Origin: Fluviispira vulneris
GTDB taxonomy: Bacteria > Bdellovibrionota_B > Oligoflexia > Silvanigrellales > Silvanigrellaceae
Direction: 5' to 3'
Assembly (NCBI RefSeq): GCF_014281055.1
Contig: NZ_JACRSE010000001.1
Span: 62,001-126,000 of the forward strand
Length of the DNA: 64,000 bases
The number at the start of each line of letters is the position of its first letter. Position 1 is the stretch's first letter. Positions 8,118 to 44,060 of the stretch are shown one piece after another. The position numbers and the translations under genes are program-made. Below the pieces are notes generated by a model. It had not been told where the DNA came from, ran no database searches, and saw only the letters and a list, made by a program, of their open reading frames with translations.

Positions 8118-9644
8118 ATGACGAATAATTTGAGTCTTATTCCTCCTTATATTAATGGGCGATTTTCTGCGTTAAATAAACCTGAAAGAGTATTTTCAAT
8201 AAATAATCCAGCTAATCCAACAGATATATTAGCTTCTGCTGGGTGGGGCAAAGATCTGGTCGATCCAGTTATTCAGGGAATGAAAGCTGCTCAGAAAAAA
8301 TTTAATTTAGTTTCTTTAGAAGAAAGATTAAATTATATAAAAAAATTTATTGGGTATTTGAATGAAAATGCAGATGAAATTAAAAGTAACATGATGCTTG
8401 AGCTTGCTCGATCACGTGTTTCGGTCGAAGAAGAATGGAAACTGTGTGAAAAATTATTTAAAGCTCTTCCTGACTTTTGCCAACAAATCCTCTCTATTAA
8501 AAAAGATGAGGAAGGATGGGAATGGAAATACTCACCCCTCGGACTTGTTTTGATATCTTCGAATATAGCTTTGCCAGTCTATTCGTTGCTTTGTGGAGTT
8601 TTACCTGCACTCGCCAGTGGCAATGCTGTTTGCATGCGGCCTTCGTCACATTGTTTACTTTCTGGCTCACTTTTAGCGAGCGGATTTCATCAAGCATCCT
8701 TTCCTGAAGGTGCTGTGCAGATTGTCTACGGAGATTTTGAAGTGTTCCGTAGATTGGTTTTAAGTCATCAATTTGACACTATTTTATACACAGGAGGGGA
8801 AGAAAGTCTTGAACAGATTCGCCGTGACACACAAGGACAGCAAAATGCGCGCTTGGTCCTATGTGGTGGTGGCAAAAATGCTGCATATGTTTCTGCTTCT
8901 GCGAATATGGATAAGGCCATTGCTAAAATTATTCATGGTGTCTGTCTGGATGCAGGTCAAAGGTTGGAATCGACAAGTCTTGCTTTTGTAGACAAAAAAA
9001 TCTTTAGCGAATTTCAAGATAAATTTGTTTCTTCAATTAAAAGTATGCCCATTGGTGTCAGGGAAGATCTTGCGCGCTCTGATATTCATGTCATGGAACC
9101 TCTTTGTAGTGTAAATGCTTGGGAGCGTTATTTGCGTTTTCAAGGAATAGCAGCGCGTGAATCCGACGAAACATTGCGCTGGGGAAAACCCATCGATAAT
9201 GGTGGCAATGGATATTTTGTCTCTCCCGGTGTGCATCTGATGAAGCTCGAGAAAGTTTTAAAAAGTATTTATGCGTCCAATGCCTTCTTTGGTCCTGATA
9301 TCTGTCTTGTTCCTGTAGACAATAAAGAAGAAGTGATTTCTGTCCTCGATAATTTAGGAGCGACTCGCTGTTTGGGCATTCATAGCCAATATGCCGAAGA
9401 AGCCCAAGAAATGCGTCGCTCTTCAAATGTGCCTTCTTTGCTATGGAACAGTGCAACAACGGATTTAAATCCGTTGTTACCAAGTATTGGTCGTGGCAAA
9501 GCAGGTAATAGCTATATAACAGGTTTGCATTTTATTTATTCTACAGTGTATCCACAAACTCTGAATCTGTCTTTGCCTAATGGTGTTACAGAAAGTGATT
9601 TTAAAGAAGTGAAGAAAGGAAAGAAAACAACTGCGAAAACGTAG
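8118..9644 (+). CDS. Aldehyde-dehydrogenase-fold pseudoenzyme
   Basis: 508 residues with the complete ALDH fold, closest in pattern to the succinylglutamate-semialdehyde (AstD) group. The expected catalytic residues are missing. The general-base Glu of the ExGG motif is Cys249 (VLCGGGKNA). The nucleophile Cys of AGQRC is Leu283 (AGQRL), at the normal spacing of 34 residues. The Glu of EVFGP is lost (NAFFGP). The oxyanion Asn (SSNIALP) remains. It cannot work as a normal dehydrogenase and may bind a nucleotide or act as a scaffold. The last residues (KKGKKTTAKT) are a basic tail like that of the H1-like gene nearby. GGGGAG precedes the ATG. Confidence 0.85.
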   Translation: MTNNLSLIPPYINGRFSALNKPERVFSINNPANPTDILASAGWGKDLVDPVIQGMKAAQKKFNLVSLEERLNYIKKFIGYLNENADEIKSNMMLELARSRVSVEEEWKLCEKLFKALPDFCQQILSIKKDEEGWEWKYSPLGLVLISSNIALPVYSLLCGVLPALASGNAVCMRPSSHCLLSGSLLASGFHQASFPEGAVQIVYGDFEVFRRLVLSHQFDTILYTGGEESLEQIRRDTQGQQNARLVLCGGGKNAAYVSASANMDKAIAKIIHGVCLDAGQRLESTSLAFVDKKIFSEFQDKFVSSIKSMPIGVREDLARSDIHVMEPLCSVNAWERYLRFQGIAARESDETLRWGKPIDNGGNGYFVSPGVHLMKLEKVLKSIYASNAFFGPDICLVPVDNKEEVISVLDNLGATRCLGIHSQYAEEAQEMRRSSNVPSLLWNSATTDLNPLLPSIGRGKAGNSYITGLHFIYSTVYPQTLNLSLPNGVTESDFKEVKKGKKTTAKT

Positions 9645-9651
9645 CCGTTGT

Positions 9652-9846
9652 TTATTTCCAAATGTATTTTAAAAGCAAAATGAAAAAGTGAATAATGAAT
9701 CCGAAAAAGATTTCATTTTGATTATTTTTTAAGCTAAAATTTTTGAAATATTTTGCCAATTGGAGTTTAATCATTTCGCCGTTGATGGAAATATTGATAT
9801 TGACTAAACGAGAGTTATAGATTAACTTAAGTTTGTTATCTTTCAT
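9652..9846 (-). CDS. Small tail-anchored-like membrane protein, unknown
   Basis: A 64-residue frame with a strong AAAGGAG site 5 nt before the ATG at 9846. The first ~45 residues are polar and basic, and the last ~18 (FFGFIIHFFILLLKYIWK) form one membrane segment, so the protein is probably tail-anchored in the inner membrane. No family is recognised. It is convergent with the ALDH-like gene, 7 nt apart. A 20-bp palindrome lies 85 nt upstream and could control it. Confidence 0.5.
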   Translation of the reverse strand: MKDNKLKLIYNSRLVNINISINGEMIKLQLAKYFKNFSLKNNQNEIFFGFIIHFFILLLKYIWK

Positions 9847-9930
9847 ATCTGCTCCTTTGTATATATTTTTATTTGTTCTCAAAAAATCCACATATTTTGA
9901 GAAATAAATTTGGCAAACAAATATTTTCGT

Positions 9931-9973
9931 CATTCCTTACTCAAAATATTTGCAATATTTTGAGTAAGGAATG
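9931..9973. repeat. 20-bp perfect palindrome with 3-nt spacer
   Basis: Arms 9931-9950 (CATTCCTTACTCAAAATATT) and 9954-9973 are perfect reverse complements around TGC. It lies upstream of the small membrane-protein gene and has no T-run, so it is more like a cruciform or operator than a terminator. Confidence 0.85.
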
Positions 9974-10477
9974 GTGTTTATGCGAATGTAAAAAATTGGT
10001 ATTTTTTAGTGCATCAGGCTCCTCTTATTAAAAAGTGATTGTATCAATTGAAATTAGGTAGTTTTTAAATAAGAGCTCGTAGAATCACAGGAACGTTTAT
10101 ATTTGTAACAGTTAAAAATCACTTTAGATCAATGAAATGAAGAGGGCAAGCTATCAGCAAAAAAATCTACATCCCTAATTTATAAAGAAATATTCAAAAA
10201 TTTTTCTGTTTATAAAATTTTATATTTTCAAATATTTGTTTTTATATATATTTTAATTTTTTAAAATTCTTAATTTATTATTAAAATATCCAGAATAAAT
10301 TTACAAATATTAAATATTTATTAATAATATCTAATATTTGTAAAATATATAAAAAATTTTGGTAATATTTGAGTGTGCAAAAAAACATCACTTAGAAAAA
10401 AACTGACATTATCAAACTGAATTAAACTTCCGATAAATATAAAAATTATTAAATAAACAGCTGAAAAGAGTGAAGCA
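9974..10477. other. AT-rich intergenic stretch
   Basis: About 500 bases without a convincing gene. The right half (10180-10380) is almost pure A/T and may hold curved promoter DNA for the gene at 10478. Short AAGTGATT/AATCACTT elements recur near 10033, 10083 and 10117 without a clear dyad. Confidence 0.5.
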
Positions 10478-30764: not shown

Positions 30765-31302
30765 AGTTTTTCCATATCCAAGACAGAATATAATTAATTA
30801 AATAAGATTCAATTTTTTTTTCTGCTATAATAATAAATCTTAACAAATTATTTTTATTGAAAAAGCAATGTTTTATCAAACTCACAAAAATGTTAAGTTG
30901 TTGTTTCTTTATATATAATGAATTGAATTATCCAATTCAGAAAATTATTATATGTTAATTATTATTTTTTTCAAGTTTGCAAATAAAAATATTTTGCATT
31001 TAATCAGTAGGCGGATCTTATTCATTAAACAATGAAAGTATTCTGAAAAACTACTATTTATATATTTTTTTTGAACAAGATTTGATTTTTACTTAGTTTA
31101 TTGAATCTGGTTGTTGTAAAAATACTTATCTATAAATGGCTTAAAAATATAGCAATTTTGCTTTGATTTTCTTCATCTAACCTTATTTCCCTTGCTCTTC
31201 AAACTATAGATGATTATAGCAAATGCTGTATATTCATATTGAGAGGAACTCTTAAGCAGTTCAGTTCTTTGATGAGTTTAGTGTCAATAATTGGAGGAAG
31301 TT
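30765..31302. other. AT-rich intergenic region
   Basis: About 540 bases between divergent genes (esterase and helicase). Only short frames without ribosome sites are seen. It must hold both promoters; I see no strong dyad or repeat. Confidence 0.5.
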
Positions 31303-34149
31303 TTGAAGAAAAAAAGTCGTTCACAAAAGAACTTTGAATGGGAGCGTTCCTCGAGCCGAGATTTAAAATCAACACCCCGTAATCCAAGAGAAAAAAACTT
31401 TAGAGAGCGTCTCTCTCAAGATAAAAAAAATCCTCAAAATCAAAATAACTTTTCTTCTCAAAAAAATTTCCAACGAAAAAATTGGCACACATCAGCTCAA
31501 AAAGATCCACAAGTCGAATTTGATCAAATCTTGATAGCAAAATTTGGTGAGGAAAAGCTCAGAAAATGTGCTGAAAATGCGAAAGATAAAATTCAGCAGT
31601 TGATTCATGGCAATACCGATGCAGTAGAGCTCGGTTTGGCTATGACATCACATGGGGAAAATACCCAAATAAAAAATGATGAGCACAACTCTAAATTGAT
31701 GCCTCGTTTTGCACCCAATAAATCTTATATAAAAGATGTAAAAAAGCAGACAAAACAAACAGATCCTGATCAACAATTCAGGCAAGAAGAACCACCTGAG
31801 CCTATTCCAACGAGAGGTTTTGCGCTTGCGAAATATCGCCGCGAAGTCTTAGCGAGCAAAAGCAATATAAAAGATGAGACAAAAAAAATAGCAATTGAAA
31901 AGAATAGCTCTTCTGAAAACTTTAGAGTGACTCCTGGCGGATTGAAACTAGATGAGTGGCAGTACCAAGCTGTCGAAGCTCTCCTCGCCGGCAAACATGT
32001 GATCGTCGATGCGCCCACTTCCGCAGGTAAAACGCGAGTTATTGAAGCGTTGCTTGAATATCGTTTAAAAGAGGGCGGACGACTCATTTATACAAGTCCA
32101 GTTAAAAGTTTAAGTAACGATAAATATCGTGAATTTAGTGAGAAATACGGTAGAGAAAAAGTTGGTATTAATACAGGAGATTTTAAAGAGAATTTAAGTG
32201 CACCCATTATTTTAGCCACCCTTGAAACTTATCGTAACAGCCTATTGGGTATTGAACCGAATATGAACCGTAGGGTTGTTGTTTACGATGAATATCATTT
32301 TTTGCAAGATGAGAGTCGTGGAAGTGCTTGGGAGGAATCTCTTATATTAACCCCAAAAGATAGTCAACTTGTTTTACTCTCTGCAAGTGTACCAAATAGT
32401 AATGATTTTGCTCAATGGATTACAGGTTTAACCGGTAAAGAAACAGAAGTCGTTAAAGTGACGAAAAGACCTGTTCCTTTAGTGCATATGCTTTATACAA
32501 AATTTGGATGGATATTTGCTGAAGATTTAAAATTAAGTTCAGAAGATTTTGTAAATCTTTCAAAAGCAGCAAAACAATTTCGTAAAGACACTCGGCGTTT
32601 TCGTGGGCGTGATGTGTACAATTCTTTTGCAAAACCTATTTTACAGGCACTCGAATTAAATATGGGTCCAATTGTTATTTATGCAGGTAGGAGAGCCGAT
32701 GTTGAAGGAATAGCTTTGAATTTTTCAAAGCAATTGAGACAGACCTTTGAAGGTTCCGAAGCAGAAAAATTAAGAGAGCGACTCAAAACTCTTTCAGGCT
32801 ATGAATATGTTCCACAAGAATTGCAGCGACTTATTTCTCGCTATGGAATTGCTTTCCACCACAGTGGAATGATTCCTCCAGGACGAGTGGCCATTGAATC
32901 TTTGCTAAAAGAAGGGTTGTTAAGAATTTGCTGTGGGACTATGGGAATCAGTTTGGGAGTTAATTTTGCTGTGCGCAGCGCTTTTATTTCCGATGAATCA
33001 CGACCAAGTGAGGGGGGTGAAACCCGTTATTCTAACACAGAAATAATGCAAATGCTTGGAAGAGCTGGTCGCAGAGGTCATGACAAACAAGGATTTTCTT
33101 TATGGTTTAATGCAGGGCGTTATGCTGAGCAAAGACCAAAAGAACGTGAAGAATGTCGCAGTTCTCTTAAATTTGATCCAACGACTGTTATCGGTATTTT
33201 AGGACAACACCAAAGTATCGCTTATCTCTCAAATTTTTATCAGAAATCATTTTTTATGATTGGTAAAAATTCATCACAAGTTCTTGTGGCGGATCACGAT
33301 CTTCTTTCGGGTGCTTTGTATAAAAAATGTGGTTACGAAAATTTAGCATGCAACGATATCCCTCAAATGTATAAAAAGTTTCAAAAGGGAAAAAATCGCT
33401 CGGAAATTGCCTGCAATCGTTGTCCCGCAAAGAAAGATTGCCACAATATGATGGCGACAGCGAGAAATAGTACATTAAATAAAATCGTTTCCCACTTGCA
33501 AGATGTAGGAGCATTAAATGAATCTGTCCCAACAGAAATGGGAAATTTGGCTCGACATTTTCCTCAAGCGGGTGGGCTCATAATTGCGAATTGGTTGGCA
33601 CAGGGACATTTAAATAAAGATACATTTTTAGATTATATTCAAGCCATGGCTGCTTTCGGTGCAGCGCATTTTAAAGAAATTCCAGATTCATTTGCTGATA
33701 TGGCTTTTTTAAATGATTTAAAAATTCCATCTTTAATTGATAAGTATTACCCAAGCACTCTTTTCCCAGAATTATATGACGAAGTTAAATTAAGACGAGG
33801 AGAAGAACCGCAAGAAGGAAATGAGCTTGTTTTTAGGGAATTCAACTTAGGTGCTGCTTCTTTGATAAAACATTGGCTCAACCCTAAAACAGAGTGGGAA
33901 GATTTAGTAGCAGAGCATTCCTCTAAGTATTTTTCAGCAGGCGATTGTATGAATGTTCTGTTTCGCTTTTCAACCTTTCTACAAAGTTGTGGTAGACTTG
34001 GAGATTTTAATCCTGCAATTGCTGCTGAAGCAAAGCGATTACAAAGAATATTATTACGCGAACCACTCGATGCTCGGAACCGTATGTTAGTGGAAGAGGC
34101 AAATGAATTGGAAAATGTCCCAGAATCTTTTTCTGAAGTTGAAAGTTAA
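31303..34149 (+). CDS. Ski2/DOB1-like DExH helicase with cysteine cluster
   Basis: 948 residues. The start is a TTG at 31303, 5 nt after GGAGG; an in-frame TTG at 31291 would overlap that site. Residues 1-200 are basic and low in complexity. Then come Walker A APTSAGKT (237-244), DEYH (from 329), LLSASVP, HHSGMIPPGR and QMLGRAGRRG (Arg at 587). Cys676, Cys683, Cys704, Cys707 and Cys713 form a cluster whose last three have the CxxCx5C spacing of some Fe-S sites. The C-terminal ~230 residues are helical. Probably an RNA remodelling or decay helicase. Confidence 0.88.
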   Translation: MKKKSRSQKNFEWERSSSRDLKSTPRNPREKNFRERLSQDKKNPQNQNNFSSQKNFQRKNWHTSAQKDPQVEFDQILIAKFGEEKLRKCAENAKDKIQQLIHGNTDAVELGLAMTSHGENTQIKNDEHNSKLMPRFAPNKSYIKDVKKQTKQTDPDQQFRQEEPPEPIPTRGFALAKYRREVLASKSNIKDETKKIAIEKNSSSENFRVTPGGLKLDEWQYQAVEALLAGKHVIVDAPTSAGKTRVIEALLEYRLKEGGRLIYTSPVKSLSNDKYREFSEKYGREKVGINTGDFKENLSAPIILATLETYRNSLLGIEPNMNRRVVVYDEYHFLQDESRGSAWEESLILTPKDSQLVLLSASVPNSNDFAQWITGLTGKETEVVKVTKRPVPLVHMLYTKFGWIFAEDLKLSSEDFVNLSKAAKQFRKDTRRFRGRDVYNSFAKPILQALELNMGPIVIYAGRRADVEGIALNFSKQLRQTFEGSEAEKLRERLKTLSGYEYVPQELQRLISRYGIAFHHSGMIPPGRVAIESLLKEGLLRICCGTMGISLGVNFAVRSAFISDESRPSEGGETRYSNTEIMQMLGRAGRRGHDKQGFSLWFNAGRYAEQRPKEREECRSSLKFDPTTVIGILGQHQSIAYLSNFYQKSFFMIGKNSSQVLVADHDLLSGALYKKCGYENLACNDIPQMYKKFQKGKNRSEIACNRCPAKKDCHNMMATARNSTLNKIVSHLQDVGALNESVPTEMGNLARHFPQAGGLIIANWLAQGHLNKDTFLDYIQAMAAFGAAHFKEIPDSFADMAFLNDLKIPSLIDKYYPSTLFPELYDEVKLRRGEEPQEGNELVFREFNLGAASLIKHWLNPKTEWEDLVAEHSSKYFSAGDCMNVLFRFSTFLQSCGRLGDFNPAIAAEAKRLQRILLREPLDARNRMLVEEANELENVPESFSEVES

Positions 34150-34275
34150 ACGTTAATTTCATTATTTATTAGAAAAAATATGGTCTATAAGAAATTATAG
34201 GCCATATTTAAATTTATAAAGATAAATATTATTGTGTTTTTTTATGATATTAATTATATTTTCTAAAAGAATTTA

Positions 34276-34311
34276 AAAAATCTTAAATTACTTTTTTAAG
34301 ATTTTTATTAT
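34276..34311 (+). terminator. Terminator-like hairpin after helicase gene
   Basis: 12-bp perfect arms AAAAATCTTAAA (34276-34287) and TTTAAGATTTTT (34295-34306) with a T-rich tail. A second imperfect stem at about 34169-34202 (AAATATGG...CCATATTT) lies before it. Confidence 0.6.
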
Positions 34312-34388
34312 CTTAAGTTTTTTCTTCCTAAAAAATGTCGTAACATTGCAAAAATTATTTATAGTCAACCGATTAGAGGATAAAATTT

Positions 34389-35756
34389 ATGCAATTAATA
34401 GAATCTATCTATGATATTTTTTATGTGGAATTTTCAAAATTACTTGGAAAGATAAATAACAAATATAAAGTTCAAATGTTTGAAAAACTAAGATTGAAAA
34501 AATTGAGAAAGATTAGCAAATTTGCATTTGCGAACTCAAATTTCTATAGAAAAGTCTTTATTGAAAATGGGATTAGAGAAGAGGATTTAGATAGAATTCA
34601 ATTTGAGCAGCTGCCAATAATTAAGAAAAAAGATATGATTGATAATATTCAAGATGTCTTTACTGATAAGAGCATAGTGAAAGATGATTTATTCAAGTTT
34701 ATCCATGATCCTTCTTCTGGTAATATATATAAAGAAAAATATATTTGCTTTACAACCTCAGGAACACTTGGTTTAAAATTACCAATCTTATTTTCTCTTA
34801 AGGATTTCAATAAAGTAATCATTAACACTCTTTTCTATAACACATTTCCAATTAAATTTTTAATTGGAAAGAAGACACGTGTGACAATGATTGGTCTAAT
34901 TGAAGGAAGAAGTGCAGGCATAACATTTTTTAAAAACCTTCCAAATTTAATTTATAATAAAAAGTCTATCTCTCTTTTACTGCCAATCCCAAAAATAGTA
35001 GAAGAACTCAATAGTTTTAATCCAGAAATGCTTATTTCTTATCCTGGAGTGTTTGTATCATTACTTGAGTATAAAAAAAATGGAAAATTACGAATATCAC
35101 CTAAAAAAATAGTTCTTTCAGGTGAAATTTTAACAAAAGAAAATGCAAAAAAAATTCGAGAGACTTTTAACTGTGAAGTTGTCAATTCTTATGGGTCATC
35201 CGAATGTCTTATAGTGGGTACGCAGCAGAATGATAAACCTTATTTAATATTTCCAAATACGTGCCATATAGAACTTGTTGGACATGATAACAAACCTGCA
35301 CCTGTAGGAGAATTGGGTAGAATCGTAATAACAAATTTTCAAAATTTCAGTCAACCATTTATTCGTTATGATATCGGAGACTTTGCTGTAAATACAGTAA
35401 ATGAATTTGGCGAGTTTAGTTTTGATGGAGTTGCTGGAAGGAATTATAAGCCAATTTTATTTCAAAACAACGAAGGTGAAAAATTTGAAATATTTCACTG
35501 GACTTTTTATACCTATATTCTCTATGCAGCAGGGATTTATAAATCGCAAATGCGTATAGGTAATAACTGTTTTAAAACCTTTCTAGTAGGTACACAGGAA
35601 TGTATTGAAAAATGTAAAAATAATTTTGATGAATTACTTAAAAGCTTAGGTGCTGAGAAATCTGTTAAATTTAGTTTCGAAAAAGTCGATGACATAAAGC
35701 CTGAATCTAATGGGAAAATACCATTTATAATATTTGATGATTCTTTGAATTATTAA
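34389..35756 (+). CDS. PaaK-like adenylate-forming ligase
   Basis: 455 residues of the phenylacetate-CoA-ligase type. The nucleotide loop is FTTSGTLGLKLPI, the acid-binding and adenine motif is NSYGSSECLIVG, and the hinge is IRYDIGDFAV. A Lys in SNGKIPFI near the C-terminus matches the adenylation lysine. It activates a carboxylic acid, probably to a CoA or carrier thioester; the acid is unknown. Genes of this subgroup also occur in capsule or natural-product clusters, but no such cluster is seen here. AGAGGA lies before the ATG. Confidence 0.82.
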   Translation: MQLIESIYDIFYVEFSKLLGKINNKYKVQMFEKLRLKKLRKISKFAFANSNFYRKVFIENGIREEDLDRIQFEQLPIIKKKDMIDNIQDVFTDKSIVKDDLFKFIHDPSSGNIYKEKYICFTTSGTLGLKLPILFSLKDFNKVIINTLFYNTFPIKFLIGKKTRVTMIGLIEGRSAGITFFKNLPNLIYNKKSISLLLPIPKIVEELNSFNPEMLISYPGVFVSLLEYKKNGKLRISPKKIVLSGEILTKENAKKIRETFNCEVVNSYGSSECLIVGTQQNDKPYLIFPNTCHIELVGHDNKPAPVGELGRIVITNFQNFSQPFIRYDIGDFAVNTVNEFGEFSFDGVAGRNYKPILFQNNEGEKFEIFHWTFYTYILYAAGIYKSQMRIGNNCFKTFLVGTQECIEKCKNNFDELLKSLGAEKSVKFSFEKVDDIKPESNGKIPFIIFDDSLNY

Positions 35757-35776
35757 TGAAAAATGATGATAAATAT

Positions 35777-35800
35777 GTATGCAAAATATTTGCATACTTA
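35777..35800. terminator. Palindrome between convergent genes
   Basis: Perfect arms GTATGCAAA (35777-35785) and TTTGCATAC (35789-35797) around ATA in a 41-bp gap between two convergent stop codons. The T-run is poor, so a terminator role is likely but not certain. Confidence 0.5.
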
Positions 35801-36709
35801 ATTTGTTGCCCAAGTGATATATTCGCCACTCGGTATTTTCAGTTTATGTTGTTTTTGGTCTTTTACATAATATTTTTTTAAATTTTCACCATTTGTGTGC
35901 TCACCCGGTGAAAATTTTAAACTCTGCAATAGACTATCAATTTCATCCGGGTTCAAAGACCATATAAGGGGTTCTTTATTTAATTTAAGGAAAATATTTG
36001 ATAAGAAAGCCTGACTGCTAAAAAAAGGTTTTCCATTTTTATCAGGGATTAAGTAAGTAAAAATAAAACTTGCTTTATTCTTTGGAAAATTATTCATAAT
36101 TTTTAAATTTTCCTGCACTATATCGAGAGGTAAATACATAAATAAACCTTCTGCAAGAAAAATAGTTTTTTTATCAAATGAAAAATTCTTTAAATTTTCC
36201 AAAACAGTGTGTAATTTTTTTTGTGCAAGATCCACCGGAATTAAAAATAAATTGTCTCTATTTTCTTTTTGATAATTTTCGAGCATTCTCTGTTTAACTT
36301 TTTGCGTCTCGGGATGGTCGATTTCAAATACGTTCACAGATTGTATTTCTTCACTGATCCTAAGGCCTAATGAGTCAGCGCCAGCTCCTAAAATCACAAT
36401 CTGCTCAGTGCCTGAAAAAAGATTATTTGTTAAAATGATCTCTTCAATTTTTTTCTTGCGCAACAAAAAATAGAGATTGAAGCCTGGTGCAACCGTATTC
36501 TCAAATGCTTGCATTAGTAGACGGGAAAACAAAAATCTTCCAGAATTTTTAAAGACTATGGATTTCCAGCCAAAAGCAGTTTTCAAAAATTTTTCGTTAA
36601 TTTCCTTAGCTTTTTCAGGTACGAAATATTTAAGTTCAGGATTTTTACTTGAATAAGCAATACTTCTTGAGATAAAAAGAGCAGTGGAACTTGCTTTATT
36701 TGCTTTCAT
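35798..36709 (-). CDS. LCM-type class I SAM-dependent methyltransferase
   Basis: 303 residues from the ATG at 36709, which has AAAGGAG 4 nt upstream; the frame continues to 36766 without a site. The SAM-binding motif is VILGAGADSLGLRI, followed by FEIDHPETQ and FLAEGLFMYLP, the pattern of the leucine-carboxyl-methyltransferase/TIGR00027 group. These methylate carboxylates or natural products. Convergent with the PaaK-like ligase, so not clearly linked to it. Substrate unknown. Confidence 0.85.
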   Translation of the reverse strand: MKANKASSTALFISRSIAYSSKNPELKYFVPEKAKEINEKFLKTAFGWKSIVFKNSGRFLFSRLLMQAFENTVAPGFNLYFLLRKKKIEEIILTNNLFSGTEQIVILGAGADSLGLRISEEIQSVNVFEIDHPETQKVKQRMLENYQKENRDNLFLIPVDLAQKKLHTVLENLKNFSFDKKTIFLAEGLFMYLPLDIVQENLKIMNNFPKNKASFIFTYLIPDKNGKPFFSSQAFLSNIFLKLNKEPLIWSLNPDEIDSLLQSLKFSPGEHTNGENLKKYYVKDQKQHKLKIPSGEYITWATN

Positions 36710-36909
36710 AAGACTCCTTTGAGAGAATAGTAATTTTATAAAAATTACCATGAGGGTAGCATGCAAAACTCAATTTGGTAATATGTGAGGATTTATTATT
36801 TTATGTACTTCCTTGAACAATTTTTCTTATTAAAATGGAATTAAAGTTAAAAAATTAATTTACAATTATATAAATTAATATTATTTTCCTAAAAATAAAG
36901 GAGATTGTG

Positions 36910-37149
36910 ATGGATTTATAAAATTTTGAGCGTATTGATAGAGAATTATTTCTGGGCTGGGCGAAAGTAAAGCGAGATAAGGAAATAAAGGGGAATTCAC
37001 TCAATGAATATCATGCTGTAATTTATCACTTACTCGATACAGGGGCTTGTGCGCATGAAATTTTAAACCGTGAGCCTCTGTTGATTGAAAATATGGGATC
37101 ACCATTTTTGAAAATTTACTCGCCAAAACTAACTTTCCTACACGAGTAG
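36910..37149 (+). pseudogene. cas3: Relic of type I-E CRISPR nuclease-helicase cas3 (N-terminus)
   Basis: After an AAGGAG site, the frame from the ATG at 36910 has a TAA as its fourth codon and then reads on for 72 codons. The protein (LFLGWAKVKRDKEIKGNS, then YHAVIYHLLDTGACAHEIL) matches the start of Cas3 HD domains, where a W-x-K-S stretch is followed by H-x-L-x-x-H-x-L-D-x-A-A-V-A. His in YHAVIYH is where the first HD ligand lies. Everything after about residue 65 is missing, and the frame runs directly into a CRISPR-like repeat. I infer a large deletion from cas3 to the end of the array. Confidence 0.7.
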
Positions 37150-37220
37150 TGCTGATCCGAATCAGAAAAGAATAACCGCTTAATCGCAAAAAGTTTCCCT
37201 ACTTGCGTAGTGCTGATCCG
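37131..37220 (+). CRISPR. Two degenerate type I-E-like CRISPR repeats with one spacer
   Basis: Copies at 37131-37159 and 37192-37220 are 29 nt long and separated by a 32-nt spacer (37160-37191), an exact 61-nt period as in type I-E arrays. The right part (GTAGTGCTGATCCG) is identical, with six or seven differences on the left. The second copy has CCCTAC-TTGC-GTAGTG, a stem with one mismatch, and the CTGATCCG end matches the ATGAACCG end of I-E repeats position for position. No third repeat is found at 37253. Confidence 0.65.
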
Positions 37221-37222
37221 AA

Positions 37223-37621
37223 CGAATATATCGGCGCTGGAAAATCGGCCATAAACATTATTATTCTTTAGAAAATCATACTATTTTTTGGCAATTAAAT
37301 TCGACCTCGTGAGATTTGTAAGAAGAAAATTCAAGACATTTAAAAATATCTATCTCAGAGAAACATTTCTTATTAGAAAAATACAAAAACAAAACTCTAA
37401 ATTATTTTAATTTTTGAAAAACGCTAAATGGATTTAATAAATGATTGAATTATAGGAAGTATGAGTCAATAGGTTCACCAACTATTCTGAGAAAATCTAG
37501 GGAGTAATTTCCCTAGTTTACTTAACCATTTCATGCTGAAAATATATTATGAAACTATTAGAAAAAATAAAACAAAAGTATTATTAGGTATCGGTTGATA
37601 CTTCTAAGTGCAGAGAAGACT
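37223..37621. other. Intergenic region after CRISPR relic
   Basis: About 400 AT-rich bases with no supported gene. A 7-bp inverted repeat (CTAAGTG at 37600-37606 and CACTTAG at 37622-37628) sits at the end of the binding-protein gene and may help terminate it. The first ~30 bases after 37220 could be a second spacer. Confidence 0.4.
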
Positions 37622-38308
37622 TCACTTAGAGCATTCTTTTATTAAAGAATTAAATTTTTTAACCGCATTTTTATTATTTGCAACAAATTGTTTTGAAAAA
37701 TAGAAAACTAAGTCGTTTTCAGAATGAAAAAATATTTTGAATTTGCTCTCATTCCAATTTCTTTTTTTTATCTCTTCTGTAGCGGCTTCAAATGGAGATA
37801 AAAAAGCATCAAATCGATTTGCTTCTAGCATATCAAAAAGATAAGTAACATCTTTTGGTGATGCAACTATATTATATTTTTGTTCAATTAAAAAATTTTC
37901 AGGTCCAGTTCCAATTTTTGCAGCAACTTCAGCCTTTTCTTTAAATTCTTTTAAATTTGGATTTAATGAGGAAGTGCTTTTTAAATACCAATACCATCTA
38001 TAATTTGCAATTTTATTAGTGGGAATAGCATAATTATTTCGTTCATCAGTTATTCCGGCAGAATAAAAGGCGTGTGCTTTACCCAATTTAACTTCTTCTT
38101 GTGCTCTTTTCCAGGGCAAAACTCTAATTTCATATTTTAATTTCATCTTTTTTAATACACATTCCACTACTCTTGTTGCAGAACCTTCAAATTTATTTCC
38201 ATTAAAATATTGATATGGAGGCCATTCTTGAGTGTTGACAAGCAAATTATTAGCAGAAATTGAAGTAGAATATAATATGCAAATAAATAAAATAGCTCTT
38301 TTATACAT
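37622..38308 (-). CDS. Periplasmic solute-binding protein, family 3
   Basis: 228 residues. Residues 1-19 are a signal peptide (ending SISANN). LLVNTQEWPPYQYFNG at the start and KLGKAHAFYSAGITDERN in the middle fit family-3 amino-acid-binding proteins (SBP_bac_3). No permease or ATPase gene is nearby, so it may be an orphan receptor or work with a distant transporter. AGGA lies 11 nt before the ATG. Confidence 0.8.
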   Translation of the reverse strand: MYKRAILFICILYSTSISANNLLVNTQEWPPYQYFNGNKFEGSATRVVECVLKKMKLKYEIRVLPWKRAQEEVKLGKAHAFYSAGITDERNNYAIPTNKIANYRWYWYLKSTSSLNPNLKEFKEKAEVAAKIGTGPENFLIEQKYNIVASPKDVTYLFDMLEANRFDAFLSPFEAATEEIKKRNWNESKFKIFFHSENDLVFYFSKQFVANNKNAVKKFNSLIKECSK

Positions 38309-38376
38309 AATTAAAAGTCCTATTTGTTTCTTGAATTAGTAAATAGAAAATTTTTAGTAAACATATTCCCATTTTC

Positions 38377-38985
38377 TTATCTGTTACTTTGGATCTCATT
38401 AGTCAATATTCTATTGCATTCTTTTTTATAATTTACACTATTCAGAAGTATTTTTTTTCTAACAGGTATGCTGGGAGAAAATGTTTCTATAGCTATAAAT
38501 TTTAAATTATTAACGTTTTTTACTTGAATTCTGAATTTTGCCTTTATTTTTGTTACACGCTCTCTAATTGCTTTAGATAAAATATTTTTGCTTAAATCAA
38601 CATATTTCCCAAATAAATTATTAACTTTATAGGGGAGTTTTGAACTAATTGCCTGTTCAATATACTTTGAAATTACATTTCTGCATTTAAAAAAACTTGC
38701 TTTTTGAGTCCCTTTTTTTTTGTTTAATTCCTGTTTTATTGTCACACATATGAGAATATTTTTTTTAATTATATCATTATGGCAGATTGAAAAACTCTGA
38801 TGAGTTTCAGATAGCAAAACGCCCTTTGATTTTAAATTCTCTGCTTTTATTGACTGCCAATCTGATGGTCGTTTAGCAAGAAAGTATTTTTCGTGCAAAG
38901 ATATTGCGAGTGCTTGTTTGTGCTTAATTTTTTTTCTATTCAAGAAAACGACAAACGCTTTGTAAATTTTAGATTTCAATATCAT
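38377..38985 (-). CDS. Lys-rich protein of unknown function
   Basis: 202 residues with many Lys and Ile and no signal peptide, membrane segment or known motif. AGAGG lies before the ATG. It is bordered by a decay zone and could be a fragment, but the frame is intact. I cannot assign a family. Confidence 0.5.
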   Translation of the reverse strand: MILKSKIYKAFVVFLNRKKIKHKQALAISLHEKYFLAKRPSDWQSIKAENLKSKGVLLSETHQSFSICHNDIIKKNILICVTIKQELNKKKGTQKASFFKCRNVISKYIEQAISSKLPYKVNNLFGKYVDLSKNILSKAIRERVTKIKAKFRIQVKNVNNLKFIAIETFSPSIPVRKKILLNSVNYKKECNRILTNEIQSNR

Positions 38986-39066
38986 TTATTGCCTCTGTGA
39001 ATTAACCTCAATATACGTATGTGCAAAAAGTACCATGTTTTTAATCATAATTCAATTTTCCTTGAG

Positions 39067-39160
39067 AAATGTCAGTTATTAATTGATATAAATGTGTGGG
39101 ACGAAATCACTGACATTTGTCCTACAAAATTGACAGTTGAAAACATAAATAATTGATATT
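39067..39160. repeat. TGTCA/TGACA repeat cluster
   Basis: AAATGTCAGT (39067-39076) and ACTGACATTT (39109-39118) form a 10-bp inverted pair; TTGACAGT follows at about 39130. TAATTGATAT occurs at 39080 and again at 39150. Such clustered ends recall transposon termini but no matching transposase is present. Confidence 0.4.
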
Positions 39161-39285
39161 ACTTGATGGTTCATCAGCTTGTCTCATTGAAGAAAACTTG
39201 ATTTTTGGCATATATCCCATAATAACAGGATGAGCAGATCTAACGGAAGAGAGAAAACATGTTAAGAACAATTATAACAACTTAA

Positions 39286-39494
39286 AAGTGGTTGAGGCTA
39301 GCACCATTGCTTAAAGAATTTAAAAATCATTTTTCAAATAGACATAGAATTTTCATGGTAGCCTTATTTTGTAAGCTACGAGCAGGAGCTCCATGAATAC
39401 AAGTAAAATACACATAGCAGACTCACATGGAAATCTTTTAGACTCTATTATAAGTGAAGTCCAAATTCACGGAAATGAACTGCTTCATCCATAA
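39286..39494 (+). pseudogene. Relic of an IS5-family transposase
   Basis: Two pieces of one transposase are fused. From 39286 the frame reads KWLRLAPLLKEF, then RIFMVALFCKLRAGAP and a TGA (39394-39396), where intact relatives have the Trp of LRTGAPWRDLP. From 39393, one frame over, it reads NTSKIHIADSHGNLLDSIIS and ends at a TAA at 39494, matching the internal TKIHLAVDxxGNPL block. The stretch between is deleted, as are the DDE residues further on. A dead copy of an IS5-group element. Confidence 0.65.
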
Positions 39495-39598
39495 TTACGC
39501 AGTAATTATGGATGGAGTTTCGTGATTCAGAACGCCCGAAGGTGTTCCAGTGCACAGAGCCGGTCTCCGGTATCTTGTTCATAATTCAATTTTTTCGT
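39480..39598 (-). ncRNA. Hairpin-rich guide-RNA-like (omega/reRNA) remnant behind tnpB
   Basis: Immediately downstream of the broken tnpB are three hairpins: CCGG-TCT-CCGG (39560-39570); GAACACC with a TTCG loop and GGCGTTC (39530-39547, minus strand); and a 13-bp perfect stem CATCCATAATTAC/GTAATTATGGATG (39486-39514). This is where IS200/IS605 elements encode the RNA that guides TnpB. G+C is higher than in the surroundings. Boundaries are estimated and function is unlikely since tnpB is dead. Confidence 0.45.
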
Positions 39599-40364
39599 CT
39601 ATTTTAACGAACCAAGCGCAAATTTAAGCATAACAAGTGAACTATTTACATCACGAGATATTGAAAATCCACAATGACAATTGTGAATTCGTTCGGATAA
39701 GTCATTTTTTACAATATCTGAACAAGATGCGCTTCTTTGGCTTTGCATTAACTTTCTTGTCTCTAATTCTTCTAATTCATACGCAGCAACTTCTGCTTTC
39801 ACAAGAACCACTTGAAGGAATTGAGACGGAGAGGTATCTAAAATACTTTTATTTAAACCCGCCTTTCTTGTAGCACCATTTGGAAGATACGCCCTGTCTA
39901 TTGTTTGAATTTAATATTTATCTTGAAAGTTTTTGTTGAACTTTTTCAATTATTTCTGATGCTCTTCTTACGAAGTGAGGGTTTTTAATTGCACTTAATT
40001 GCTGCGCTTCATTTGCTATGGTTAAAAAAGTTGTTACTTCCTAATCAAATGCATGGATATGTGTATCAGAATTTCTTTCTAGCACACATTGATATGTTAC
40101 AGAAATAATCCAGTCTTCATCTTTTCTAAGTACTTCCATTGTTTTTGGGGTATCGCCATTCATTGACATTCCTCGTATTTGAATTTTGTCCACTCCAGAA
40201 ATGCGAACAGTACCGCCACGTGCTTTTTTCTTTTTTGCTTGAAAAGTATCAATCATCAAGCCATCACTATATGTTTTATATCCCCAACCTAAAATGCGAT
40301 CATAGGATTTAAATAGAGGAAAACCAACCGTTTTACATATGAACTTGTTGCAAAGCTCTCGCAT
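39599..40364 (-). pseudogene. tnpB: Broken tnpB (IS200/IS605 RNA-guided nuclease)
   Basis: Three pieces in order. (1) 40364-40041: FPLFKSYDRILGWGYKTYSD, GTVRISGVDKIQIRG and ISVTYQCVLER, the TnpB N-terminal part, ending in AFD and a TAG where the first RuvC Asp lies. (2) The same frame continues with FLTIANEAQQ and RRASEIIEKVQQKLSR to a TAA. (3) After an internal deletion and frameshift, from about 39880: RKAGLNKSILDTS, LSERIHNCHCG and ISRDVNSSLV, the zinc-ribbon and last RuvC Asp. The first CxxC of the ribbon is also damaged. No tnpA is present. Confidence 0.8.
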
Positions 40365-40459
40365 GTGATCTGTTACATCTCTTTAAATATCTAAGATTGT
40401 TGACAATCTATTGGAAAAACGATACGAAGTCTTTGTTATTCAATGAAAGGACAATTAAA

Positions 40460-40834
40460 ATGAAAATAATTTCTGTTTGCTTATTTTGTCTAACTTTTTC
40501 AAATTTTTCAAATGCTATGTCAAATAATGAGTCAGCATTATCGACACCAAAAAAGTTAAGTTGTGAAAACATTGTCTCACCTGAGAGTCCGCAAATATTT
40601 AAATTTGGACTTCTCATATATTCTTCAGATTCAAAAGTTGATAAAGGATATTTAACTTATACAGAAAATCTTGTTGAAGAATATACCATGTAGTTTGATA
40701 TGAAAATATTAAACCAAGATAATAATTATGTTGATGTCGAAGTGGATTCTCAGCCATATAATGTTAAGTTAGACAAAAATAACTACACAGCAAAGATTTC
40801 TCATGAAGGGAAAGATTATTATACTTGTAAATAA
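40460..40834 (+). pseudogene. Secreted protein gene interrupted by one TAG codon
   Basis: From the ATG at 40460 (AAAGGA site upstream) a signal peptide (MKIISVCLFCLTFSNFSNA) begins a 125-codon frame. A TAG at 40691-40693 interrupts it, after which the same frame continues in plausible protein (FDMKILNQDNN, then GKDYYTCK) to a TAA at 40834. One substitution would restore it. The family is not recognised. It may be a recent pseudogene, a sequencing error, or two peptides. Confidence 0.55.
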
Positions 40835-40874
40835 TATCTTTTTCTTTGTTTAAAAATTGATCTTACAAAAAATA

Positions 40875-41507
40875 TTATTCATAGAAAATAAATACTGCAA
40901 ATAACGTCAGTACAAATCCTGTTGATATGTTTAACCAACCCTTTATGTGTGGCTTCTTTAAAGCCGCACTGGTAAATGAGATGAATATTGTAAGAAAAGT
41001 AAACCATAAAAAAATATTCATTGAGTGAATCGTAACAAGTTCAAAACCTCTTTTTATATTGTTCTCACTGGCAATAAAATTTGGAAAGGCAGCAATATAA
41101 AATATAGAAACTTTAGGATTGAGTATTTGCGTGATAAAACCATCAATGTAACTTTTTGAAAATTCCACAGGCTTAGCTTTGAAGTGAACAGAAGCATTCA
41201 TTTTTTGTTTTACTTTTATATTTTTCATGCCAGAAATTATGGATTTTATTCCCATATAGAGAAGATATGTTGCTCCTAATAACTTAACAGCTAAAAAAAG
41301 TGACTTGTTGTTCAGTAAAATTGCAGACACTCCAAGAATTGACAGAGCTCCATGTAAATATGTTGCAGAACAAAGACCCAAAACATTGGCCATGGAGTTT
41401 TTTTTGCCAAGTCTTGACGCATTGTCAATTATAAGAGCCATATTTGGCCCTGGAGAGATTACTAAGAAAAAAGAAATAATAAAGAATGTTATGAGTGGAT
41501 TGGTCAT
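40875..41507 (-). CDS. LysE/RhtB-family amino acid exporter
   Basis: 210 residues with about six membrane segments. The start TFFIISFFLVISPGPNMALI is the family signature, with PGPN conserved, and LLGATYLLYMGIKSI follows. It exports an amino acid, the substrate being unidentified. The ATG lacks an obvious ribosome site. Lies just outside the decay zone and appears intact. Confidence 0.9.
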   Translation of the reverse strand: MTNPLITFFIISFFLVISPGPNMALIIDNASRLGKKNSMANVLGLCSATYLHGALSILGVSAILLNNKSLFLAVKLLGATYLLYMGIKSIISGMKNIKVKQKMNASVHFKAKPVEFSKSYIDGFITQILNPKVSIFYIAAFPNFIASENNIKRGFELVTIHSMNIFLWFTFLTIFISFTSAALKKPHIKGWLNISTGFVLTLFAVFIFYE

Positions 41508-41610
41508 TTTACATTTAATTCCGACATTGTTTTTCCTTCGATTATTAAATTTCTGTAAATTTATGTTTTATAATGATAAATTTTTTCCAATAAAAAATGT
41601 AAATATGTGC

Positions 41611-42351
41611 TTAAGCATCACTTTCTTCTTCTTTGCTGATAATCACAGGCTGCGAAAATGCATTCTGCATATAAGTTAATAATTCAAATAAAGAATCTAT
41701 TAATTTTTCGGGATCATTATTTTCGGGGCTGAGAGAGATTGACGTTGGTGAAACTGTATAGCTTATGCTTGGATAATGACATTCGTGTATACCTAAGCAA
41801 GATTCTTTTTGTGAGTATATCAATCGGTGATTCCAGAAATGCCCTTTAGGAGAATAAAAATCTTTTTTTTCTTGCACGCTAAGTTCTTGAAACTGATCGT
41901 GAAATAAATTACTGTCAAAAACGATTTGCTTTTGTTTTTCCATATCAAATAAGAGACATCCATTTTTTTCATTTGGGTCAGTCGTGTTTATGCTTATATC
42001 TTTTAAGTAAAAGTAAAATTTATTTGATATTTTGCATTTATAAATTTTTGCACTGGATGTAGATGTGTATTTTTTAAAACGTGCAAGAATTTTTTCTTCC
42101 TCTGTCATGGTAACTGTTTTAAAAGACTGGCTGTGCCAGTTTTTTAAAATTTCTTGAGTATTTGAATTGTTTTCTTTAAAGCAAACAACAGCATCTATTC
42201 CGCAATAAGGGCAAAGAGCAGTGAGATTGTTATCAATATACTCTTTTATTTCAATTGTCTCATACGTTTTTAAGCAATAGTAACAGGAACAATTTTTATA
42301 TTTTTCAATTATATGCTTGTTCTTAAAGCTTAATTTGCTTTGCTCATTCAT
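41611..42351 (-). CDS. Zinc-ribbon cytoplasmic protein of unknown function
   Basis: 246 residues. Near the start CSCYYC and, 24 residues on, CPYCG form a four-Cys zinc ribbon of the type seen in small bacterial proteins of unknown role (pattern CxYCLKxY, then TALCPYCGID). The rest is a mixed alpha/beta domain of no known family. The ATG overlaps the stop of the 66-residue frame upstream (ATGA), suggesting translational coupling; GGAGA also lies near it. Confidence 0.7.
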   Translation of the reverse strand: MNEQSKLSFKNKHIIEKYKNCSCYYCLKTYETIEIKEYIDNNLTALCPYCGIDAVVCFKENNSNTQEILKNWHSQSFKTVTMTEEEKILARFKKYTSTSSAKIYKCKISNKFYFYLKDISINTTDPNEKNGCLLFDMEKQKQIVFDSNLFHDQFQELSVQEKKDFYSPKGHFWNHRLIYSQKESCLGIHECHYPSISYTVSPTSISLSPENNDPEKLIDSLFELLTYMQNAFSQPVIISKEEESDA

Positions 42352-42548
42352 TCTATCTCCGAGAAATTTATGTATTTCAGTTTAAGAAAATTAATCCTTT
42401 TTTTGCTGCCCATTTTTGTAATCTGAACTTTACTTTTTATGAAAAATTTCTCAATAACTAAATAACGATATAACTCTATTTGCAGATTTTGCAAAGCCTT
42501 TTTTTCAATTCTGTTTATAGGTATTTTAATAAAACAGTAATCACTCAA
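42348..42548 (-). CDS. Possible 66-residue protein coupled to zinc-ribbon gene
   Basis: A basic frame starting at a TTG and ending in a 4-nt ATGA overlap with the next gene. The overlap is the main support; there is no ribosome site before the TTG and no recognisable domain. The true start may be an internal codon. Confidence 0.33.
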   Translation of the reverse strand: MSDYCFIKIPINRIEKKALQNLQIELYRYLVIEKFFIKSKVQITKMGSKKRINFLKLKYINFSEIE

Positions 42549-42749
42549 TGGTATATCGATTAAAATAAAATCTCTCAGCCGATTTTAGCAAAAATCATTT
42601 TTTGCAAAAAAACGGGTATAAATTTATATTGATATGTTGTAAATTCATTTTTATGATTAAAATAATTAGAAAATAATTGAAAATATCTCTGAAATTGTTA
42701 AGATAAAGCTCTTGATTAGTGGAATAAACGTTTTAAATTAGAGGCTTAT

Positions 42750-44060
42750 ATGGAACAGACAGAATCAGCTCCTATCGAGCAAAGTGAAAACAGCAATACA
42801 TCCAACTCACTCAGTCGGGAAGAAATCAAAACATTTTCTATTTCAGCCCTGGGTGGTTCCTTAGAATTTTATGATTTCGTTGTCTATGTCTTTTTTGCTC
42901 AAATAATTGGTCAATTGTTTTTTGATACAAGTACAAAAGTTGGTTCATTATTAATATCATTTACAGTTTTTGCAAGTGGTTATTTAGCAAGAGTTTTAGG
43001 TGGAGTGCTATTCAGTCACTTTGGTGACAAAAGTGGGCGGAAAAATTCTTTTGCCTTAACCGTTTTTCTAATGGCCGCACCAACTTTTATTATCGGAATT
43101 CTACCGACTTATGCACAAATTGGGATCACCGCAACCTTTTTATTGATAGCCTGTCGAATTGCACAAGGACTTGCTATTGGTGGAGAAATCCCTTGTTCCA
43201 TAACTTTTATTTATGAACATGCACATAAATCGAGAAGAGGATTTGCTTGTGGGGTGCTTTTCTGTGGAATTATTTTAGGAATTTTTCTTGGCTCTTCAGC
43301 AGGTGCTCTGCTCAATCACTATTTAACCAAAGAGGAACTTTATTCCTGGGGATGGCGATTGCCATTTTTAGCTGGCGGTGTCTTGGGGTTAATCGGTGTT
43401 TATTTACGTAGATTTTTAAAAGAAACCCCTGTATTTAAAAAAATGAAAAAAGAAAATATCAAGTTACCAGTATCCCTTGTAATTGCGGAATATAAATTTG
43501 AACTATTGCAAACAGCTGTCAGTATTTTAGCTTTAGCAGTTGCTGTGACTCTTTTTTTACTCTACTTACCAACATATTTAAATGTTTATCATGGTTTTGA
43601 AGCAGATGATATTTTATTTATCAATTCAGTAGCTGTTTTTGTTTATGCTATTATAATTATTTTAGGTGGTATTTTATGTGATAAAATCGGACCTAAAAAA
43701 GTGCTGAATTTTGGGTTGATCCTTTTAATTATTTTTTCCTATCCAATATTTTATTTTTTTAGACCTGATAATTTTAATTCTATTTATTTTTGTTATGCTA
43801 TTGTGTCAGTGGCGACAGCCTGTATTACTGCTGGAAGTATTTATCTTTTAGCCCAATCATTTCCTACCAAAATCCGGTATTCTGGTGCATCTTTGAGTTA
43901 TAATCTAGCCTTTGGGATATTTGGTGGATTTACTCCCTTGATAGCCACGACCTTGATTAAAGAAACTGAGTTAAAAGCATCTCCGGCTTTTTATATGATT
44001 CTAGTTTCAACGATTGCTTTAATTTTAAATTTCTTTCATTCTAAAAAAGAAATTGAGTGA
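42750..44060 (+). CDS. MHS-type MFS symporter (ProP/KgtP-like)
   Basis: 436 residues and twelve membrane segments of the metabolite:H+ symporter subfamily. Typical are GGSLEFYDFVVYVFFA in helix 1, HFGDKSGRKNSF in the 2-3 loop and RIAQGLAIGGEIP in helix 4. It takes up an organic acid or osmolyte, which one is unknown. AGAGG lies 5 nt before the ATG. Convergent with the PLP enzyme, 11 nt apart. Confidence 0.88.
   Translation: MEQTESAPIEQSENSNTSNSLSREEIKTFSISALGGSLEFYDFVVYVFFAQIIGQLFFDTSTKVGSLLISFTVFASGYLARVLGGVLFSHFGDKSGRKNSFALTVFLMAAPTFIIGILPTYAQIGITATFLLIACRIAQGLAIGGEIPCSITFIYEHAHKSRRGFACGVLFCGIILGIFLGSSAGALLNHYLTKEELYSWGWRLPFLAGGVLGLIGVYLRRFLKETPVFKKMKKENIKLPVSLVIAEYKFELLQTAVSILALAVAVTLFLLYLPTYLNVYHGFEADDILFINSVAVFVYAIIIILGGILCDKIGPKKVLNFGLILLIIFSYPIFYFFRPDNFNSIYFCYAIVSVATACITAGSIYLLAQSFPTKIRYSGASLSYNLAFGIFGGFTPLIATTLIKETELKASPAFYMILVSTIALILNFFHSKKEIE

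Follow-up and report, generated by a model that had tools for sequence, protein, structure and literature searches.

Two degenerate 29-nt repeats beside the 5′ end of a cas3 gene in Fluviispira vulneris raise the question of whether they are what is left of a complete type I-E CRISPR-Cas locus and, if so, by which steps the rest of that locus disappeared. They lie in a 64,000-nt stretch of the genome (the window; contig NZ_JACRSE010000001.1, positions 62,001 to 126,000), for which a first-pass annotation had proposed a single deletion running from cas3 through all of the cas genes to the end of the array. The features on which the argument turns are as follows, by position in the window.

31291 to 34149, + strand: conserved DEAD-box helicase gene, bounding the island on the left and marking the orthologous type I-E site in Fluviispira multicolorata
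36847 to 36909, + strand: region upstream of cas3, alignable to the upstream region of F. multicolorata cas3
36910 to 37130, + strand: 5′ remnant of cas3, the N-terminal part of the HD domain, about 72 codons, identified by Pfam and by amino acid and nucleotide homology
37131 to 37159, + strand: degenerate CRISPR repeat 1 (R1), 8 differences from the F. multicolorata consensus
37160 to 37191, + strand: spacer 1, 32 nt, without a protospacer in the collections searched
37192 to 37220, + strand: degenerate CRISPR repeat 2 (R2), 5 differences from the F. multicolorata consensus
37221 to 37252, + strand: putative spacer 2, a spacer-length stretch from R2 to the intron fragment, without a protospacer in the collections searched
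37252 to 37531, + strand: 5′-truncated, decayed group II intron consisting of the last maturase codons and the 3′ intron end, 75% identical in nucleotide sequence to introns of two relatives
42750 to 44060, + strand: MFS transporter gene, the right edge of the island, found directly after the helicase gene in five other genomes of the genus

When 56 genomes were searched with the Pfam Cas3_HD model, a complete Cas3 of about 1000 amino acids was found in two members of the same genus, F. multicolorata 33A1-SZDP (genome G005; loci L017 and L053) and a second genome, G006 (locus L016). The G005 genes stand in the order cas3-cse1-cse2-cas7-cas5-cas6-cas1, as judged by Pfam, and are followed by a small frame that, from its sequence and from general knowledge, we take to be cas2. 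The G005 array comprises 95 repeats (AGTTTCCCTACGCCCGTAGGGATGATCCG) with spacers of mostly 32 nt, and the G006 array comprises 81, in which A replaces C at position 14. Intact arrays of the kind that the first-pass annotation had suggested looking for in relatives therefore exist, with nearly the same repeat as the window, AGTTTCCCTACGCNCGTAGGGATGATCCG, and the same geometry of 29 + 32 nt. R1 and R2 match these arrays in sequence, in their 61-nt period, and in orientation relative to cas3, in agreement with the type I-E architecture originally assigned to them. Among 14 genomes of the family, the repeat is present only in G005, G006, and the genome of the window. Separately, G005 carries a solitary mini-array away from its main locus (C19:612620-612760; L051 2120-2260), with two I-E-like repeats spaced 61 nt apart and ending in ATGAACCG, and with a possible third degenerate repeat; the orthologous interval of the window, 9644-10457, has no counterpart of this mini-array (C19:612665-612751). 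In the main G005 array, a 34-nt spacer, GTCTGTGGTTATACTGACACTGGTCTACTGCGGC, occurs twice close to the distal end, two units apart (L017 16680-16900), which suggests a local duplication.

Within the window, R1 (AACTTTCCTACACGAGTAGTGCTGATCCG) and R2 (AGTTTCCCTACTTGCGTAGTGCTGATCCG) recur at a period of exactly 61 nt, with 32 nt between them, just as first described. Repeat finding gave 86% identity between them over 28 nt, and their 24 identities in 29 positions are the maximum for 29-mer pairs 55-66 nt apart in the whole window; among all such pairs, 22 or more identities are reached only at this place. With up to three mismatches allowed, the consensus repeat pattern matched R1 and R2 and no other site in the 3.6-Mb genome, and the reversed pattern, used as a control, gave 0 matches. 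The repeat is thus not one that recurs at unrelated genomic sites. No additional repeat with up to 11 mismatches was found flanking the pair in the interval 34150-38400, and a near-match at G000:C3:273721 was set aside as a single unrelated site.

Both window repeats have drifted from the G005 consensus, R1 at 8 positions and R2 at 5, and the palindromic stem for Cas6e, of 7 bp (-10.8 kcal/mol), is reduced to 4 bp in each (-2.5 and -2.4 kcal/mol). Their 3′ handle reads CTGATCCG, as against ATGATCCG in the relatives. At positions 14, 20, and 22, R1 and R2 share the same bases, unlike the G005 consensus, and independent random decay would not by itself produce bases common to both. In CRISPR adaptation each new repeat is copied from the repeat at the leader end, so that a mutated leader-end repeat spreads through successive units, and copying of this kind is the likely origin of the common bases. 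The G005 array contains runs of the loop variants CCC and GGC, as in the copying of a mutated repeat, and the two surviving window units may come from one such variant run.

The cas3 remnant matches positions 1-35 of Pfam PF18019 (Cas3_HD) at E=2e-5, above the cut-off. Over 74 columns it is 66% identical in amino acid sequence to G005 Cas3 (E=1e-23), and it is 44% identical to G006 Cas3, so that the G005 protein is the closer of the two; in blastn, window positions 36847-37127 align with L017 2032-2330 at 68%. The frame runs on into the first repeat, as had been noted, and ends at a TAG inside R1 (37147-37149). It also carries a stop at codon 4 (TAA, 36919-36921), which the earlier reading had overlooked. 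Homology to Cas3 ends at 37122-37131, within about 9 nt of R1, which leaves no room for an A+T-rich leader, and the remnant has none. Because differences from G005 at the three codon positions number 20/10/31 in the 71 codons of the remnant and 134/70/417 in the 944 codons of the helicase gene, the remnant looks, on this small sample of aligned sequence, to be under relaxed constraint.

The relic and the locus of G005, the closest relative sequenced, are orthologous, because in both genomes cas3 comes after the same helicase gene (85% identity between the helicase proteins). In five other members of the genus (G002, G003, G004, G006, and G007), the MFS gene directly follows the helicase gene, so that 34150-42749 is an insertion site that both G005 and the genome of the window have used. 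The helicase-MFS interval is likely an insertion hot spot. The island occupying it in the window encodes an AMP-binding enzyme, a leucine carboxyl methyltransferase family protein, a solute-binding protein, and a LysE transporter; it is absent from the five genomes just named, and at this site G005 carries the type I-E locus plus more. The G006 type I-E locus lies elsewhere, on C5, with the helicase gene on C2.

Taken together, the site, the repeat skeleton, the 29 + 32 nt geometry, the orientation, and the N terminus of cas3 are those of the G005 locus, from which the relic differs in keeping only about 72 cas3 codons and two repeats with a weakened stem, with no other cas gene. With G006 it shares nearly the same repeat and the geometry, and differs in chromosomal site and in having a more distant Cas3. 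Like degraded or orphan CRISPR arrays in general, it has few, degenerate repeats in a genome where no intact cas genes were found; unlike them, it still has the 5′ end of cas3 attached, and a relative shows how it was originally arranged. We conclude that the relic is very probably a decayed complete type I-E locus in which a deletion extended from cas3 into the array and was followed by further rearrangement.

The right side of the relic bears on how many events were involved. The earlier reading had missed the second spacer-length stretch after R2 and, beyond it, the group II intron fragment, in which the tail of the maturase gene, with its stop codon, lies at 37291-37434. The intron copies in G005 and G006 match Pfam RVT_1 and GIIM and Rfam RF00029. 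Rfam itself gives the decayed window copy no score, and its maturase gene and 3′ domain V/VI are recognized through the 75% identity to the 3′ ends of the G005 and G006 copies. Those two copies, on C22 of G005 and C4 of G006, have 3′ ends 98% identical to each other. A VqmR-like Rfam match further downstream (37563-37646) was rejected as far below the gathering score. Because the truncated intron starts at about 37252, the array has lost its natural end, and at least two events are needed. That the locus vanished in one step, through a single deletion reaching from cas3 as far as the natural terminus of the array, is accordingly unlikely. The abutment of Cas3 homology on R1, the conserved orientation, and the failure to find any other cas gene in the window fit the first part of that proposal, a deletion from cas3 into the array, which can be retained. 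Its extension to the array end cannot, given a 5′-truncated intron one spacer length past R2 and a downstream flank with no match to the array flanks of G005 or G006. Had the intron inserted already 5′ truncated at the array end, one deletion and one insertion would have been required, which is still not a single event.

A functional type I-E system comprises cas3, the Cascade genes, cas1, and cas2. The genome of the window, which is 98.9% complete, offers an N-terminal cas3 fragment; neither Cas1 nor any other Cas3_HD protein was found in it, and Cas7 was likewise not found, in own-genome searches with weak controls. At this level of completeness a cas gene could lie in a gap. The CRISPR remnant is almost certainly non-functional and is best regarded as inert. 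No protospacer above chance was found for either spacer in phage and plasmid collections or in eight genomes of the genus at up to three mismatches, so that the comparison of spacer 1 with phage and plasmid sequences recommended in the first-pass annotation yielded no match. Viral contigs likewise gave no protospacer above chance when searched with exact spacer cores and, for putative spacer 2, one frame of which reads NEYIGAGKSA, with a back-translated pattern of this P-loop-like reading. None of the 174 spacers of G005 and G006 is shared with the window, the best agreement being 18/32.

Could the two repeats be the remains not of the main array but of an ectopic mini-CRISPR, encoding a CreTA antitoxin RNA or a guide that regulates cas expression? 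A CreTA module contains one degenerate repeat or two, the first more diverged than the second (PMC9458426), and the window resembles such units in having two degenerate repeats around one spacer, with R1 more diverged than R2. Against this likeness, no ectopic repeat was found upstream of cas3 in either G005 or G006, nor in the G005 interval from cas3 to cse1 (best candidates at least 14 mismatches away); neither spacer has a seed of at least 9 nt that matches near the cas3 promoter or in the right flank; a second spacer-length stretch follows R2; and the genome has no detected Cascade gene to use such an RNA. We therefore regard a mini-CRISPR origin as highly improbable. Even less probable is that the two repeats are retained as a CreTA-like or cas-regulating guide that has outlived its system, for example one that is transcribed and used by another nuclease. 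That they are chance or non-CRISPR repeats beside a cas3-like fragment deserves almost no credence, since, although there are just two copies, 79-86% alike, they specifically match the type I-E repeats of the same genus, keep an exact 61-nt period, and are unique in the genome, where control patterns came up empty.

The decay of a complete locus can thus be set out as a sequence of steps, the order, number, and extent of which we infer from the comparison with G005. The common ancestor of G005 and the genome of the window would have had a complete type I-E locus downstream of its helicase gene. About 9 kb or more would have been deleted, which would have fused cas3 near codon 72 to one of the repeats within the array and eliminated the remainder of the gene along with the other cas genes, the leader, and the bulk of the repeats. 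This deletion, from codon 72 or so into the array, is well supported; no intermediate genome shows it directly, and neither a leader nor a trailer survives from which the remnant could be placed within the array. Another rearrangement would have brought what was left of the array up against internal sequence of a group II intron, and the leftover two repeats, one complete spacer, and one spacer-length stretch would since have been decaying, in a genome that offers no Cas proteins for their processing or use.

The remnant is a case of ordinary locus decay, unusually clearly documented. It allows the loss of CRISPR-Cas between related species to be followed by comparison of an intact locus, its relic at the orthologous site, and genomes free of the insertion, and it shows that a cas3 stub with a pair of repeats can remain recognizable after the other parts of a locus have gone. 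It changes no principle and adds to what is known of the turnover of defence systems in the Silvanigrellaceae.
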